A DNA stretch of 64,000 bases from Gemmatimonadota bacterium. Lineage in GTDB: Bacteria; Gemmatimonadota; Gemmatimonadetes; Gemmatimonadales; GWC2-71-9. The stretch is taken from assembly GCA_003222195.1 (NCBI GenBank), contig QHVB01000027.1, positions 186,001-250,000 on the forward strand, written 5' to 3'. Both the position numbers and the translations under genes were made by a program. Of the stretch, positions 8,910 to 15,305 are shown in pieces (within the stretch, counting starts at the first letter, position 1; each line of letters opens with the position of its first letter). The notes below the pieces were generated by a model. The model searched no databases. It was not told the origin of the DNA and was given only the letters and a program-made list of their open reading frames with translations.

Positions 8910-9211
8910 AAAGCCCTTTCTGCTAAGGAGATAAAGCGCGCGTGGACCAAAGTGAATGACGCCTGGGCAATCTGCAAGTGAGAGGCATCACACCTGAGCA
9001 CAAACGCGCTCGAAAACACGGTCGGCACGGAATTCGCTTCGGAGCGGCACCGGGGGACGGCCTGCCGCGTCCTAGAGGCCTCCCCCTCCAAGGGACCCGG
9101 GCACCGCAACTATTAAGTTGGTGCGCCTCTGCTGAGCTCTCGTACATCACGTATCACGCCGGTCTGACGCATTTCCTGTTTGCGCACATCGTCGCCGAGG
9201 TCTGCGACGCG
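8910..9211. other. 302-bp intergenic region without a convincing gene
   Basis: Only short overlapping frames without family signals. One imperfect hairpin at 9101-9124 (GCACC, 2-nt bulge, AACT, 4-nt ATTA loop, AGTT, GGTGC) has no T-tract. The region must include the leader of the HD-domain gene. I recognise no riboswitch class in it. Confidence 0.5.
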
Positions 9212-9433
9212 TCAGCGCTCGTCGTGATCGCGCTCGGATTCAGGGAGCGGGTCGGTCCCGCTCCGCTCGTACCCGGGGCAGCGCAGCACCGGTAGCGGCG
9301 GGTAGCGCACAAAGCGGGGATCGGGGGGGTCCATATCGGCGCGCAGGCACCGATAGAAGACCGACCCCCGCCGGTTTGTCGCGATTCGAACCCATCGGCA
9401 GGTCGCGCAAAGCCCTACGGCAGGGTCAGTCAT
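9212..9433 (-). CDS. Small four-cysteine (zinc-ribbon-like) protein
   Basis: 73 residues from the ATG at 9433. The pattern GLCATCRWVRIATNRRGSVF, then YRCLRAD, DPRFVRYPPLPVLRCPGYE gives Cys-x2-Cys ... Cys ... Cys, which fits a small conserved hypothetical family known from Actinobacteria and others in which the four Cys probably bind zinc. Role unknown. It is divergent from the Hpt-receiver gene with 27 bp between start codons, so the two share a promoter region. Confidence 0.7.
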   Translation of the reverse strand: MTDPAVGLCATCRWVRIATNRRGSVFYRCLRADMDPPDPRFVRYPPLPVLRCPGYERSGTDPLPESERDHDER

Positions 9434-9460
9434 TAGGTCGTAGGACAAGCTAGTTATATC

Positions 9461-10291
9461 TTGGAGCCCGTGAGCTCCCCCCCGCCCTCCCAGGGCGACG
9501 ACTTCGGGCTGCCCCCCGGAGTCCGGGACGACTACCTGCACGGAGCGCGCGATCAGCTGGGGGCAATCGCAGAGCTGGCTGAACGGCTGATCGCCGCTGG
9601 CGACGACACGGCCGCAATCGAGGAGCTGCGCCGCGACGCCCATCGGCTGCGCGGCTCCGCCGGATCGTTCGGGTTCCCCCAGGCCTCCGTCGTCGCCGGC
9701 GAGCTCGAAGAGGCCGCCAAGCACTGGCTGGAAAAGCCCAGCAACGGCGTGGCGAATCGAGGTCAAGCCGCTCGGGGTTTCGTCCGGCGGCTCGCCGCGG
9801 CGCTTTTCACGAAGCAAGCGGCCGCCGCTCCTCTCGCCGCCCCATCGCCGCCGGCTGTTCACGTCGCCCGTTCGCCGCCCCCCGCGGTCGCGGCAGCCGA
9901 GCCCAGCGACGTACCGGAAGTCATCGTCGTCGAGGACGACCCGGCCCTCGCCGAGCTGCTCACATTCGGGCTCGAGGCGCGCGGCTACCGCTTTCTCGCC
10001 TTTCGCAACGGGCGCGAAGCGCTGGACCTGCTCAAGAAGATGGACACGAGGGGCAGCCGGCAGCCGCCGTTGCTGCTCCTGGACGTCGATCTTCCCGCGC
10101 TCGACGGCTACTCGATCTTCGAAGAGCTGCAGCAGGAGTGCCCAGGAAAGTTTCGCGTCGTCTTCACGACGGTGCACGGCAGCGAAACGGAGCAGCTGCG
10201 CGGGCTCGAAGCCGGCGCGATGGACTACATGGTGAAGCCGATGAGTCTGCGCGTGGCGCTCGAGAAGATTCGGCGTTGGGTGGGCCGGTGA
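9461..10291 (+). CDS. Hpt domain-response regulator receiver fusion
   Basis: 276 residues from a TTG at 9461 (GTG at 9470 is an alternative start). The N-terminal ~95 residues form an Hpt domain with the phospho-acceptor His61 in DAHRLRGSAGSFGF. An Ala/Pro-rich linker (about 115-148) leads to a receiver domain with the acidic pair in VIVVEDDPALAELL, phospho-Asp208 (LLLLDVDLPALDGY) and VKPMS near the end. There is no output domain, so it is a relay or single-domain regulator that can hold phosphate on both His and Asp. Its stop overlaps the HEAT-repeat gene (GTGA), placing it first in the operon that ends in the GT2-YaiO gene; control of polysaccharide synthesis is a reasonable inference. Confidence 0.9.
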   Translation: MEPVSSPPPSQGDDFGLPPGVRDDYLHGARDQLGAIAELAERLIAAGDDTAAIEELRRDAHRLRGSAGSFGFPQASVVAGELEEAAKHWLEKPSNGVANRGQAARGFVRRLAAALFTKQAAAAPLAAPSPPAVHVARSPPPAVAAAEPSDVPEVIVVEDDPALAELLTFGLEARGYRFLAFRNGREALDLLKKMDTRGSRQPPLLLLDVDLPALDGYSIFEELQQECPGKFRVVFTTVHGSETEQLRGLEAGAMDYMVKPMSLRVALEKIRRWVGR

Positions 10292-11349
10292 CGGCCCGGC
10301 ATTTCCTCACGATCGTCGCGATCGTGCAGGGCATCCTGCTCGGCGGACTGATCGTCCTGATCATTCTGAACCGCTGGTTCAGATTGCGGCGCAGCACCCG
10401 GCTCAACCCACGCCGCGAGGCGATCGACGCGTCCATGCGGCGCTGGGCTGCGGGCACGACGCCGCTCGCGGGCGTCCTGGTGGGACTGTCGCGGCTGCCC
10501 GTGCCGCTCGCAATCGACGCGCTCGTCAAATGGTCGGCGCGGGTCCCGGGGGAGCGCTGGCGCCAGCTCGCGCAGGCGCTCGAGCACCACTGGTGGGCCA
10601 GGCTGGTCCGCACGAACAGCACCTCGGCGCGCTGGTGGAAGCGTCTGGAAACCGCGCGATTCTTGAGCGTCGTGGCGACGCCGAAGGACGTGAATCGTCT
10701 CACGCGACTCATCAACGATCCACACCCGGCGGTGCACGTGGCTGCCGTGGCCTCACTCGAGCGGATGGAAAACACGGCACTCACACTGGCCGCGCTCGAC
10801 CGGCTGCCGCGACTCGCCCCGACCGTCCAGGCGTACTATGCCGCGATGTTGCTACGGTCGCGACCCGTCGTCGTCGAACATCTACAGAAACGGCTGCGCC
10901 GCGCGGACGATCCCACCCTCCCCCGCCTCGCCGAGTTTGCGGCGCGCCTCGGGGAGCCGGCGCTGCGCGAGCGTCTGACCGCCCTCGCCGATCACGCCGA
11001 TCCCGAAGTTCGCATTCAGTCGGCGCGCGCGCTGGGCAGCTTCCCCCATCGCGAATCGGTCGCTGCCCTGAAACGACTCGCGACCGACGACGCCTGGGCG
11101 GTGCGCGCGCAAGCCGTCCGTTCGCTCGGGATGATCACCGACGTGAGCACATTGCCGCTCGTGAAAGCGGCGCTGCGGGACACCGAGTGGTGGGTGCGGC
11201 TGCGCGCGGCACTCGCGTTGATGCGCTTCGCGGGAGCCGGCCGCAACGCGCTCCTCGAGGCCGAAGTCGGCCCGGATCCCTTCGCGCGCGCGATGGCGCA
11301 GCTGGTCCTCGGACTGCCGGCGCAGGCGCTGGCGGAGTTCGCCGCATGA
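10288..11349 (+). CDS. Membrane-anchored HEAT-repeat protein
   Basis: 353 residues from a GTG in a GTGA overlap. One N-terminal membrane helix (LTIVAIVQGILLGGLIVLIIL) is followed by alpha-helical repeats of the HEAT/PBS-lyase kind: NDPHPAVHVAAVASLERM, DHADPEVRIQSARALGSF, DDAWAVRAQAVRSLGMI, DTEWWVRLRAALALMRF. Such solenoids are scaffolds. It lies between a phosphorelay protein and a glycosyltransferase and overlaps the latter as ATGA, so it may physically link signal input to the synthase at the membrane. That link is inference. Confidence 0.88.
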   Translation: MTARHFLTIVAIVQGILLGGLIVLIILNRWFRLRRSTRLNPRREAIDASMRRWAAGTTPLAGVLVGLSRLPVPLAIDALVKWSARVPGERWRQLAQALEHHWWARLVRTNSTSARWWKRLETARFLSVVATPKDVNRLTRLINDPHPAVHVAAVASLERMENTALTLAALDRLPRLAPTVQAYYAAMLLRSRPVVVEHLQKRLRRADDPTLPRLAEFAARLGEPALRERLTALADHADPEVRIQSARALGSFPHRESVAALKRLATDDAWAVRAQAVRSLGMITDVSTLPLVKAALRDTEWWVRLRAALALMRFAGAGRNALLEAEVGPDPFARAMAQLVLGLPAQALAEFAA

Positions 11350-13481
11350 GCGTGCTCACCAGCATCGTGGGAGTGACCGACCTGACGATCCTGGTCTATT
11401 TCCTCGTCCTGAACTCCTTCTACGCCGTGCTGCTCATGCTCTCGATCCCGGAAATCTGGGAGCAGACGCGGCTGGCCGAGGATGAGGACTTCCAGCGGCT
11501 GATGCAGAGCGACGCGCTGCCGCCGATCACGGTTCTCGTGCCGGCGTACAACGAGAGCGCGACGATCGAAGCGAGCGTCACCGCGATTCTGACACTCGAG
11601 TATCGCAACTACGAAGTCGTCGTCGTGAACGACGGCTCCAAAGACGACACGCTGGAGCAGCTGCGGCACGCGTTCGATCTCTATGAGATCCCGCGAGTCT
11701 ATCCCGAGACGATCGCCACGAAGCCGCTGCGGGCGCTCTATCGGTCGCGCTCGCGCTCGCGCCTGCTGGTGCTCGACAAGGAAAACGGCGGCAAAGCCGA
11801 TTCGCTGAATGCCGCCATCAATGCGTCGCGCTTCCCTCTGGTGATCGCCGTCGACGCCGATACCCTGATCGAGCCCGACGCGCTGTTACGCCTCACGCGA
11901 CCCTTCCTGCTGGGCCGCGAGATCGCCGCGGTCGGCGGGACCGTACGCGTCGCCAACAATTGCACGGTGAAGGACGGACGGGTAACGGACGCTCGGGTCT
12001 CGCCCAAGCCGATTCCCGGCATCCAGGTGGTCGAGTACCTGCGCGCCTTCCTGTTCGGACGGCTCGGCTGGAACCGGCTCGGCGGCAATCTGATCATCTC
12101 CGGCGCGTTCGGGCTGTTTCGCAAGGAATACGTCGTCGCGGTCGGCGGCTATCACACCAACAGCATCGTCGAGGACCTCGATCTCGTCGTGCGGATGCAC
12201 CGGCATCTGCGACGCCGCAAGATCAGGTACGAGATGCCGTTCATCCCCGACCCGGTCGCGTGGACGGAAGTGCCGGAGTCGTTGAAGATCCTGTCGCGGC
12301 AGCGCGAGCGCTGGCACCGCGGGCTCATCGCCGCGATGTGGCAATACAAGAGCATGTTGTTCAATCCACGCTACGGCAGAATCGGTCTGCTGGCGATGCC
12401 GTTTTACACCTTCGGCGAAATGCTCGCGCCGGTAGTGGAGCTCCTCGGCTACCTGATCACCGGGCTGGGGCTGGCGTTCGGACTCGTGAACGTGTCGTTC
12501 GCGCTGCTGTTCATCCTGGTCGCGTGGGGGTACGGCATGCTGCTCTCGATCTGGGCGGTGGTGCTCGAGGAGGTCAGCTTCCGCCGCTATCGCCGCTTCA
12601 TCGACCTGGTCCGACTGCTGCTGTTCGCCTCGCTCGAGAACTTCGGCTATCGGCAGTGCACCGTATGGTGGCGACTCAAGGCGTTCGTGAACGTCTGGAA
12701 GGGCGTCCATGTGTGGGGCGACATGGCGCGCAAGGGGTTCGGCAAGGCGAGCGTCGCCGCGCTGATCGCGCTGTGTTGCGCGACGCCATGTCTGGGCCAG
12801 CGTGTGCGCGTCAATGCCTGGAGCTCTTACGAGGCCGTCGAGAACAGTCAGGACTGGTCGACGCTCGGTGCGCAACTCACGCTGGCGTCCGCGCGCGGGC
12901 ATGCCGGCTGGGTGGCGGCCGAAGTGCTGGGCCGGTTTGGAGCAACAGATGTGACGGAGCGCATCGGGGCCGTCGTACATCCCACACAGCGGCTGTGGCT
13001 CACGGCGGAGGCGGGCACGTCGCGGCGTCCCGTGTTCTCACCCCTGAACACGTGGGAGACCGACGTCAGCGGCTTGGTCGCGGCGCGCACGTCCGTCGGA
13101 CTCGGGGTTAGGCGGTGGAACTACGCCGTGGGTCCGGTGGACGTGTTGATGCCGCACTTCACGGCCGAGACGCGCCGCATGTCGTGGAGCGTGCGCGTGT
13201 TCATCTCGCGCAATCCGTCGAAGCGGACCGACACGGCCGCCTCGCTCCGCGCCACGCGTGCCGTCTCCCGGCGCACCACGATCTCATTGCTCGGCGCGGG
13301 GGGCCGCGAGAGTTATCTCGTTGCCGGCGTCGTTCAATCCCTGAAGACGCTGTCGGGCGTGGCCGGCATCCGCTACAACGCGGCCGGCGGGACGACGCTG
13401 CGGCTGGACGTGAGCGTCATTCGCTCACGTCCAATTCTGTCACGGAGCGGGCTGTCGATCGGTGTAGAACGCGTGCTGTAG
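11346..13481 (+). CDS. Processive GT2 glycosyltransferase fused in frame to a YaiO-like outer-membrane barrel
   Basis: 711 residues in one uninterrupted frame. Residues 1-460 are a membrane GT2 of the BcsA/PgaC type: N-terminal helix, VPAYNESAT (65-73), NDGSKDD, DAD (170-172), SGAFGLFRKE, VED (275-277), QRERW (319-323), then 3-4 C-terminal helices. From Met460 the sequence becomes MARKGFGKASVAALIALCCA with a signal-peptide look and a cleavage-like CLGQ, followed by ~225 residues of beta-rich sequence resembling YaiO/PgaA-type outer-membrane domains. An internal ATG at 12723 with GGGG 5 bases upstream could start a separate barrel protein of 252 residues. Exopolysaccharide synthesis and export is the likely role. 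ATGA overlap with the HEAT gene. Confidence 0.88.
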   Translation: MSVLTSIVGVTDLTILVYFLVLNSFYAVLLMLSIPEIWEQTRLAEDEDFQRLMQSDALPPITVLVPAYNESATIEASVTAILTLEYRNYEVVVVNDGSKDDTLEQLRHAFDLYEIPRVYPETIATKPLRALYRSRSRSRLLVLDKENGGKADSLNAAINASRFPLVIAVDADTLIEPDALLRLTRPFLLGREIAAVGGTVRVANNCTVKDGRVTDARVSPKPIPGIQVVEYLRAFLFGRLGWNRLGGNLIISGAFGLFRKEYVVAVGGYHTNSIVEDLDLVVRMHRHLRRRKIRYEMPFIPDPVAWTEVPESLKILSRQRERWHRGLIAAMWQYKSMLFNPRYGRIGLLAMPFYTFGEMLAPVVELLGYLITGLGLAFGLVNVSFALLFILVAWGYGMLLSIWAVVLEEVSFRRYRRFIDLVRLLLFASLENFGYRQCTVWWRLKAFVNVWKGVHVWGDMARKGFGKASVAALIALCCATPCLGQRVRVNAWSSYEAVENSQDWSTLGAQLTLASARGHAGWVAAEVLGRFGATDVTERIGAVVHPTQRLWLTAEAGTSRRPVFSPLNTWETDVSGLVAARTSVGLGVRRWNYAVGPVDVLMPHFTAETRRMSWSVRVFISRNPSKRTDTAASLRATRAVSRRTTISLLGAGGRESYLVAGVVQSLKTLSGVAGIRYNAAGGTTLRLDVSVIRSRPILSRSGLSIGVERVL

Positions 13482-13557
13482 TACGACGGGCGCGTGATGG
13501 TGGTCACAAGGTGACTGAGGCTCTTGCATTCCCACCCTTCTCTCAAGGCCTTAGAGC

Positions 13558-14808
13558 ATGCGTAGACTCGCGATAGCCCTGACCGGCCTGGTTGCCTTGG
13601 TCCACTTGTCCTGCTCTGATGCTTCGGGACCTGGGGATCAAGCGAACAGCCGTATTTCCATCACCAACAATGCGAGCACATTGGCGTCGCGCGTCACCTA
13701 TCTGGACACCTCGATCCCGATCGACAGCGCGCACGTCGGGTATCCCACCGCCCCGGTGCCATTCGCGTCGGCCACGGTGAGCCGGAGCAGCGCGGCGAGC
13801 CAAGCGTTCAATCTGCAGCTCAAGGCGGAAGTCGCGCCGCCATCAATTGGCGGGCAGGTGCTGCAAGCGACATCCGTGTCCATCGTCGGAAATCTCGCGG
13901 TCGTCAGCTACAACATGGTCGGCAATCCGTATCTGGGCGGGGTCGATGTCATCGACATCAGCAACAAGAACCACCCGGTTCTCACGTCCGAGGCGCTGTT
14001 TCAGAACACCGACGTCAGTGCCGTGACGACATCAGGAGTCAACGTCTATCTCGCCGAGGCCACGGGCGATACGGGATTCGCGGCTCCGGCCGTATTCGAG
14101 GTCGTGAAGCTCGTCGGTAACCAGCTCGTGCTCACCGGCAATACCCGCACGGGTTTGAGCAGCTTCGCGGCGACCAGCGTCGCGTACGGCACGAGCGTCT
14201 ACGCGACCTCCGGCGACGCGGGCAGCCTCTTTGTGATCGATCCGACGCTCTTCACCGTCACGAGCTCGATCGCCCTGCACGATGCACGCTGGGTCGCCGC
14301 CGGCGGCGGCCAGGTTGCCGTCGTGCAGGGGACTCCAGGCACGCTGGACGTTTACAGCGAGAGCAACATGAGCGTGGTCGGCTCGTGGCCGTTCAAGGGC
14401 GCCGATATCGCGCAATCCAAGTCGCAGCTCGAGCTGGTGGGCGGCAAGGCGTTCATCGCGGCGGGGGACAGTGGCGTGCAAGTGCTGAGTGCCTCGACGG
14501 GCGCGGTCGTCGGCTCCGTGCCGCGGCCCAATCCCGACTCGTTGGGTCTGAGCCCTTCAGTCGTGGTCACGAACGCGGTCGCGATCGATCAAGACCTCAT
14601 GTTCATCTCGAACGGCGAGGCAGGCGTCTATCTGGCGCAAGGGAGCCAGGCGTTTTCGACAACTGGTTCCGAGACGCAACAGACCATCACGATGCGCGGC
14701 AAGCTCCGCTTCGGAAATCTCCAGTCTGTCAACCACGTGGCCCTGCAGTCCGGCCTACTGATCATCGCGGCTGGCCTGGGCGGGCTGAAGATCGTTCAGG
14801 TCAACTAG
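13558..14808 (+). CDS. Secreted propeller-like (LVIVD-type) repeat protein, probable lipoprotein
   Basis: 416 residues. The N-terminus has a signal peptide with Cys19 in LVHLSC, an imperfect lipobox (His at -3). The rest is made of beta-propeller-like units such as SVSIVGNLAVVSYNMVGNPY with GGVDVIDISNKNHPVLTSEA, and VSGDSGVQVL-type turns; the ending GLLIIAAGLGGLKIVQVN is typical of LVIVD repeats found in cell-surface proteins. Function unknown. It follows the GT2-YaiO gene by 76 bp on the same strand, so it may belong to the same surface-associated unit. Confidence 0.75.
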   Translation: MRRLAIALTGLVALVHLSCSDASGPGDQANSRISITNNASTLASRVTYLDTSIPIDSAHVGYPTAPVPFASATVSRSSAASQAFNLQLKAEVAPPSIGGQVLQATSVSIVGNLAVVSYNMVGNPYLGGVDVIDISNKNHPVLTSEALFQNTDVSAVTTSGVNVYLAEATGDTGFAAPAVFEVVKLVGNQLVLTGNTRTGLSSFAATSVAYGTSVYATSGDAGSLFVIDPTLFTVTSSIALHDARWVAAGGGQVAVVQGTPGTLDVYSESNMSVVGSWPFKGADIAQSKSQLELVGGKAFIAAGDSGVQVLSASTGAVVGSVPRPNPDSLGLSPSVVVTNAVAIDQDLMFISNGEAGVYLAQGSQAFSTTGSETQQTITMRGKLRFGNLQSVNHVALQSGLLIIAAGLGGLKIVQVN

Positions 14809-14924: not shown

Positions 14925-15305
14925 ATGAAGAACCGCACACTGATGGCTGCGTTGCTGGCTCTGGCGCTCGGCATCCCGGCCGCCGTGAATGCCCAGCAAC
15001 CCAGCGATACCACGGCAGACAGGCATGAGGTGCGTCGCGACCGACGCGAGCTGCGCCACGACCGGCGTGATACTCGCCAGGACCGACGTGACATTCGGCA
15101 GGACCAGCGTCAGCGCCGGCAGGAGATCAGAGAAGGTGACACGACCGCGGCGCGGCAGGAAACGCGCGACATCCGGCAGGACAAGCGCGATCTCCGCAGC
15201 GACCGGCGCGATCGTCGGTCGGACCGGCGTGATGTGCGGCACGACCGCCGTGATCTCCGCAGAGATCGTCACGACAGCACGACCGCCAAACCGACGAATC
15301 CGTAA
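14925..15305 (+). CDS. Secreted Arg/Asp-rich heptad-repeat protein
   Basis: 126 residues with GAGGACGAGG ribosome-binding sequence before the ATG. A clear signal peptide (LMAALLALALGIPAAVNAQQ) ends at AQ. The mature part is nearly all Arg, Asp, Gln and His in 7-residue units of the form D-R-R-D-x-R-x (DRRELRH, DRRDTRQ, DRRDIRQ, DKRDLRS, DRRDRRS, DRRDVRH, DRRDLRR), interrupted by EGDTTAARQETR. A charged single alpha helix or coiled coil is expected. No enzyme motif. It could bind polyanions or the cell surface; that is speculation. The gene ends just before a 28-bp palindrome. Confidence 0.8.
   Translation: MKNRTLMAALLALALGIPAAVNAQQPSDTTADRHEVRRDRRELRHDRRDTRQDRRDIRQDQRQRRQEIREGDTTAARQETRDIRQDKRDLRSDRRDRRSDRRDVRHDRRDLRRDRHDSTTAKPTNP

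Follow-up and report, generated by a model that had tools for sequence, protein, structure and literature searches.

In Bradyrhizobium, cytochromes b and c1 are made as one precursor, FbcH, in which a membrane protein and an exported protein form a single chain that is cut at an internal signal sequence. The products of FbcH are unrelated to polysaccharide synthases and outer-membrane barrels, and both of them remain at the inner membrane. A fused polypeptide is also found in Komagataeibacter/Gluconacetobacter, where AcsAB (fused AcsA-AcsB) is described as proteolytically processed in PMC4877109, and for the E. coli pair NfrB-NfrA PMC8669469 gives an overlap of 14 nt between the two genes. There was little on the function of YaiO in the literature that we searched, and the papers reached by our searches contained no report of a synthase-YaiO fusion and no description of a fusion with products destined for two different membranes.

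The window, which is the whole stretch of 64,000 nucleotides from a Gemmatimonadota genome that we analysed, carries on its forward strand an open reading frame at 11346..13481, 711 codons long and without an internal stop in translation. From the sequence, residues 1-465 can be recognised as a processive GT2 synthase, 460-484 as a signal peptide and 485/486-711 as a YaiO-type barrel of 14 strands. The anatomy given in a preliminary description (a GT2 that runs without a stop into an embedded signal peptide and a YaiO-like barrel) was thus right, as seen from the matches to PF13641 and TIGR04390 and from a hydrophobic segment at residues 465-483. In this genus of soil bacteria, two proteins for two different membranes very probably come from the one frame, split at the signal peptide in mid-chain. 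The reading that we favour, with a probability of about 0.7 and on the basis of sequence, structure models and analogy, is that the frame encodes a two-protein precursor, or polyprotein, that would be cut by signal peptidase at G484|Q485 and that originated when two neighbouring genes of a small exopolysaccharide-type locus were fused.

The GT2 catalytic domain (residues 59-326, 11520..12323, + strand) matches PF13641 with 98.7 bits, the cut-off being 27. Processive GT2 enzymes share the motif set D, DxD, ED and Q(Q/R)xRW, and here we find D96, DAD at 170-172, ED at 276-277 and QRERW at 319-323, of which D96, D170, D172, E276, D277, Q319, R320, R322 and W323 are invariant in the 22 rows of our alignment A3. 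The QxxRW motif of processive GT2 enzymes is also named in PMC8669469. By domain and motifs the first part of the frame is a processive GT2 polysaccharide synthase. Its best Foldseek match is a hyaluronan synthase (E 9.5e-15), with cellulose synthases matched too, and its best named NCBIfam match is PgaC_IcaA (TIGR03937), for which the score of 140.9 bits lies below the curated cut-off of 422.3 and gives no PgaC/IcaA equivalog assignment. Pfam found no PilZ domain in the fused protein. The synthase ends with the motif WGDMARKGF (residues 457-465, 12714..12740, + strand), which precedes the stop in unfused GTs; WGxMxRKGF or a variant ends nearly all synthases compared, and W457, G458, M460, R462 and G464 are invariant in A3 (22/22 rows). 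A structure model of the joined chain had a mean pLDDT of 72.4, and as A3 covers the barrel with no more than six rows, the model was of low quality there; hydropathy and charges were accordingly used to judge the topology. By hydropathy the synthase has three membrane helices, at about 13-31, 363-381 and 385-403, and a helix at 418-451 that is too polar for the membrane (0.84). Since the loop 412-418 holds four Arg and the tail 430-470 is basic (7 Lys/Arg vs 2 Asp/Glu), the C-terminus of the synthase is predicted by rule to lie in the cytosol, which is what an embedded signal requires.

The last part of the frame (residues 485-711, 12798..13478, + strand) is a YaiO-type outer-membrane β-barrel with 14 predicted strands. 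It aligns over its length with clear YaiO members, and TIGR04390, the YaiO barrel model, matches residues 501-708 with 29.7 bits in the whole chain and 33.1 bits in the part from 12723 (cut-off 32). Because this is barely over the cut-off, and because the Pfam YaiO model PF19413 stays under its own (18.3 bits against 23.9), the sequence places the barrel as a borderline and divergent member of the family. When the barrel was modelled alone with AlphaFold2 the mean pLDDT was 90.2, with 14 strands of which the first begins at residue 486, and a β-barrel fold behind the signal peptide is predicted. The solved barrels matched by the model were a TodX mutant (Z 21.4), Omp33 (21.2), FadL (about 20) and OmpG (18.4-19.8), which speaks of fold and not of function; a sequence search of the PDB gave no match for the barrel.

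The embedded signal peptide occupies residues 460-484 (12723..12797, + strand). Its segment 465-483 has a mean Kyte-Doolittle value of 1.68, the AlphaFold2 model of the barrel part has a helix at 467-478, and in the alignment the peptide corresponds to the signal peptide at the N-terminus of the separate barrel encoded at locus L119. The separate barrel of the relative G001 begins MSARIVAAAFVLVTLPASRLGA|Q, with a signal peptide of its own that aligns with the embedded one, and the matching stretch in the window reads GKASVAALIALCCATPCLG|Q and has no canonical start codon. By this alignment the fused clade has retained the signal peptide of the barrel, but not its start codon. A cut by signal peptidase at G484|Q485 is predicted from alignment, hydropathy and model together. 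The residue at -1 is small and the one at +1 is Gln in 6/6 sequences (five fused and G001), and at -3 there is a Cys, which is acceptable although not the classic Ala. In the AlphaFold2 model only residues 479-485 separate the signal helix from strand 1, and as these 7 residues cannot cross the periplasm, either a cut in the chain or a separate initiation of the barrel is needed. An uncut bridge, with the synthase as its anchor in the inner membrane and the barrel as its anchor in the outer one, would agree with the missing stop and the conserved frame, but the periplasm is roughly 20 nm wide and the modelled linker would reach at most about 2.5 nm, and the signal would have to escape cutting despite a c-region that by eye is signal-peptidase-like. 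The bridge was rejected on linker length and we consider it very improbable; a single chain spanning both membranes had been judged unusual already in the preliminary description.

One contig of the window's own assembly carries the frame unbroken, and so do four further genomes from the genus, each time with exactly 711 codons and with no indels among the five. Protein identity to the window's ORF is 78-87% in the other four, as read from the mixed alignment A2, in which the N-terminal parts of separate barrels are misplaced and which is the source of the identity figures only. In the genus set of 10 genomes (G000, G002-G010) the full-length single-frame match is found in five (G000, G004, G006, G008, G009), G010 has a synthase with a stop, and no synthase match was found in G002, G005 and G007. 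The halves lie on two contigs in G003, at 99-100% identity, and as the second contig opens with codon 457 and continues in the reading frame of the barrel, this fits the fusion without bridging it. The survey loci L001 and L016 have the same sequences as G009 and G008, respectively, and were counted once. The assemblies are drafts, and an error of assembly or sequencing could in principle have removed a stop or shifted the frame, but the same 711 codons in five separate assemblies, four of them diverged from the window's to the extent given above, make the likelihood of this practically negligible, and we rejected it for the genus.

An open frame alone is weak proof in GC-rich DNA, and in the barrel part of the five genomes another forward frame has only 1-2 stops and one reverse frame 0-4. 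The proof is instead the conservation of this particular frame, with dN/dS in the 10 pairs of the five genomes of 0.057-0.123 for the synthase, 0.112-0.362 for the barrel and 0.102-0.503 for the signal segment, where 25 codons are a small sample. A chance open frame was ruled out by these values, and together with the separate genes in relatives they show one conserved frame that codes for two proteins of separate function, an arrangement like that of AcsAB.

The phylum was searched in 395 genomes with a synthase threshold of E <= 1e-50. The synthase is present in 109/395 genomes and the YaiO family in 61/395, and the match runs through residue 711 in one frame in only the five genus members. 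Pairing of the synthase and YaiO search tables gave 12/395 genomes (G001, G127, G129, G171, G239, G249, G297, G303, G306, G313, G356 and G390) where the synthase is followed on its own strand, at a distance of <=350 nt, by a YaiO barrel encoded in a separate open frame of different length; other genomes have the YaiO barrel kilobases away from the synthase or on other contigs, and most genomes with a synthase are without any. In most of the other family members that were checked, no barrel comes after the synthase. This, the faster evolution of the barrel (dN/dS 0.11-0.36 vs 0.06-0.12 for the synthase) and the 3/10 genus genomes that have no synthase match would be in line with a merely tolerated fusion, in which the barrel half would be a read-through tail that the cell can do without and that is degraded or in the course of being lost. 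We think that this is improbable, as dN/dS is well below 1 in 10/10 pairs and the full length, the signal and the strand pattern have all been kept.

Junctions between synthase and barrel were read in G001, G306, G127, G297, G356 and G249, and the barrel start could be placed in all but the last two. The genes overlap by 4 nt in G001 (ATGA) and in G306 and G127 (GTGA), and in G297 they are separated by a gap of 4 nt. G001 has two synthase copies (C29:56559-57953 and C268:472-1863), and of these only the C29 copy was seen to have a barrel after it. Closest to the fused clade stands G010, where a stop follows directly after the WGxMxRKGF tail and the synthase overlaps (GTGA) with a TPR-bearing protein of 849 residues, followed by a protein with PgaA-like TPR repeats (40.9 bits). 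The slot behind the synthase in this genome of the same genus (L118:2765-6792) is thus filled by the 849-residue TPR protein and a TPR/barrel-like protein, with no YaiO barrel; the former is glycosidase-like by eye, with Pfam matches to TPR only, and a similar TPR protein stands behind the synthase in L006. In the synthase tree (28 of 33 rows, since L011, L181, L184, L192 and L022 were dropped by the motif filter) the five fused sequences group together in a single clade (99/98), to which G010 is sister (99/100); the fused locus L074 is distant from them, beside the unfused G249. From these comparisons the fused frame is a derived fusion of two neighbouring genes. The preliminary description had held that a stop codon found consistently in orthologues would point to a local frame fusion or a sequencing error. 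The orthologues outside the clade do have a stop, in some of them within a 4-nt overlap, and the fusion is therefore lineage-specific; the suspicion of an error falls, since the frame is kept in five genomes under purifying selection.

Two routes from one frame to two proteins had been suggested there, cleavage at the embedded signal and initiation at an internal ATG (M460, 12723..12725, + strand). The latter would yield a barrel precursor MARKGFGKASVAALIALCCATPCLG|Q..., and the read-through would be an unused or degraded synthase tail. This ATG is the sole canonical in-frame start near the junction that is common to all the fused genomes (5/5), the segment downstream of it would make a good signal peptide, and its SD-like energy of -4.7, compared with sites in 459 kb of the same genome, is stronger than at 83% of the 1319 internal ATGs and at 72% of the 39 confident starts, the 39 being a small set obtained with simple ORF rules. 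It is, however, also the invariant Met of the WGxM motif of the synthase, and the preceding TGGGG holds the W-G codons, so that both are conserved in 22/22 rows of A3 regardless of fusion. The energy at the equivalent site of 25 unfused synthases is if anything stronger, with a mean of -5.69 (31/35 loci passed the filter, 6 fused and 25 unfused), and fourfold-site identity is average in codons 441-460 (0.53 vs a mean of 0.53), though mildly high in codons 451-470 (0.68, sd 0.09). The long chain would moreover be made anyway, as no stop follows the synthase. Since the G-rich leader belongs to the W-G codons, the SD and synonymous-site tests are not decisive between the two routes, but with an ATG that is the motif Met, a stronger SD in unfused synthases and an average synonymous conservation upstream, nothing points to selection for a start at 12723. 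We therefore favour cleavage and regard the internal start as unlikely, although both may occur.

From all this we infer a topology, a cleavage and an export route for the precursor. The inner-membrane synthase would be translated first, and its C-terminal WGDMARKGF would stay in the cytosol. The former signal peptide of the barrel would come next, with the RKGFGK tail of the synthase serving as its positively charged n-region, and would engage Sec once more, whereupon signal peptidase I would cut at G484|Q485. The barrel, residues 485-711, would then cross the periplasm to the Bam complex for insertion into the outer membrane, and the synthase would keep the spent signal as an extra C-terminal helix in the inner membrane, unless this is degraded. 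The polymer made by the synthase would probably be exported through the barrel or together with it.

The gene is part of an apparent operon, of which the first gene encodes a protein with Hpt and receiver (REC) domains (9461..10291, + strand; PF00072 73.4 bits, PF01627 42.5 bits). The second encodes a HEAT-repeat protein (10288..11349, + strand; PF13646 117.7 bits) with an N-terminal hydrophobic segment by eye; its GTG start overlaps the preceding stop (GTGA, 10288-10291), and the ATG of the fused ORF in turn overlaps the HEAT stop (ATGA, 11346-11349). These upstream junctions are of the same kind as the synthase-barrel overlaps in relatives. Orthologues of the Hpt-REC protein adjoin HEAT and GT genes in many relatives, and the Hpt-REC and HEAT-repeat proteins are likely the regulatory and scaffold part of a polymer locus. 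No promoter- or terminator-like sites were found at 9100-13700. A putative lipoprotein with a VHLSC lipobox (by eye) and weak YVTN/LVIVD beta-propeller signals is encoded at 13558-14808, and it is also found downstream of the fused gene in L001 and downstream in L014; the small product of 14925-15305 looks secreted and consists mostly of Arg/Asp-rich repeats.

Extensions behind the synthase were surveyed in the best 80 of 587 loci, and the end of the synthase was visible in 77 of these (L014 is without a synthase, and L007 and L019 run off their contigs). More than 100 residues follow the synthase in 5/77 of these best-matching loci, namely L001 and L016 from the genus, L074, L043 and L075. 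L074, from a distant Gemmatimonadetes MAG, is a synthase-YaiO fusion with a C-terminal part that scores 100.8 bits with TIGR04390, and by sequence it is apparently independent of the genus fusion. An assembly error is possible for L074, because a single contig carries it and the search of the 395 genomes gave no further full-length copy. L043:4944-7946, from Nitrospira, encodes 1001 aa with a synthase, a signal-like segment (by eye) and about 500 residues that gave no Pfam or NCBIfam match, and in L075 the synthase is followed by a hydrophobic segment in which no cut site stands out by eye. We hypothesize, and find it reasonably likely, that the fused frame is a bacterial envelope polyprotein that sends a synthase to the inner and an exporter to the outer membrane in 1:1 synthesis. 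Such polyproteins would arise repeatedly when overlapping genes for synthase and barrel merge into a single frame, so that the RKGF tail of the synthase, which lies in the cytosol, turns into the n-region of the signal peptide. On this view the window's genus and L074 would be two origins, and L043 a third variant, with an uncharacterised exported part of about 500 residues.

If this is true, a signal peptide is able to function immediately after a multi-span synthase, a single round of translation supplies two membranes, and a polymer synthase and the partner in the outer membrane are obligatorily made 1:1. As a fusion usually joins partners, the frame would also support YaiO as the export partner of PgaC/YaiP-like synthases. 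For annotation pipelines it means that the product would be named a glycosyltransferase and that the barrel could be missed.

Among the known systems, the pair PgaC and PgaA, the synthase and export porin of PNAG, is brought to mind by the best named NCBIfam match of the synthase, but the barrel, in which no TPR was matched, is not a PgaA, and the synthase is far below the PgaC_IcaA cut-off (422.3). In E. coli K-12 the yaiP-yaiX-yaiO cluster likewise holds a putative glucosyltransferase and the name-giving YaiO protein on one strand, although yaiP and yaiO are separate genes and an acyltransferase gene, which IS2 has broken, lies between the two. NfrB-NfrA resembles the frame of the window in that a GT2 synthase and an outer-membrane pore come from one operon, but the two are separate genes, NfrA has TPR repeats and NfrB an MshEN domain. 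AcsAB, the fused BcsA-BcsB cellulose synthase, is like the frame of the window in having a processive GT2 and an exported partner in one polypeptide, which in AcsAB is separated by proteolysis and in the window would be cut at the predicted site. It differs in that the window's protein has no PilZ match, and in that AcsB is periplasmic and anchored in the inner membrane, whereas the second product of the window's frame is a predicted outer-membrane barrel.
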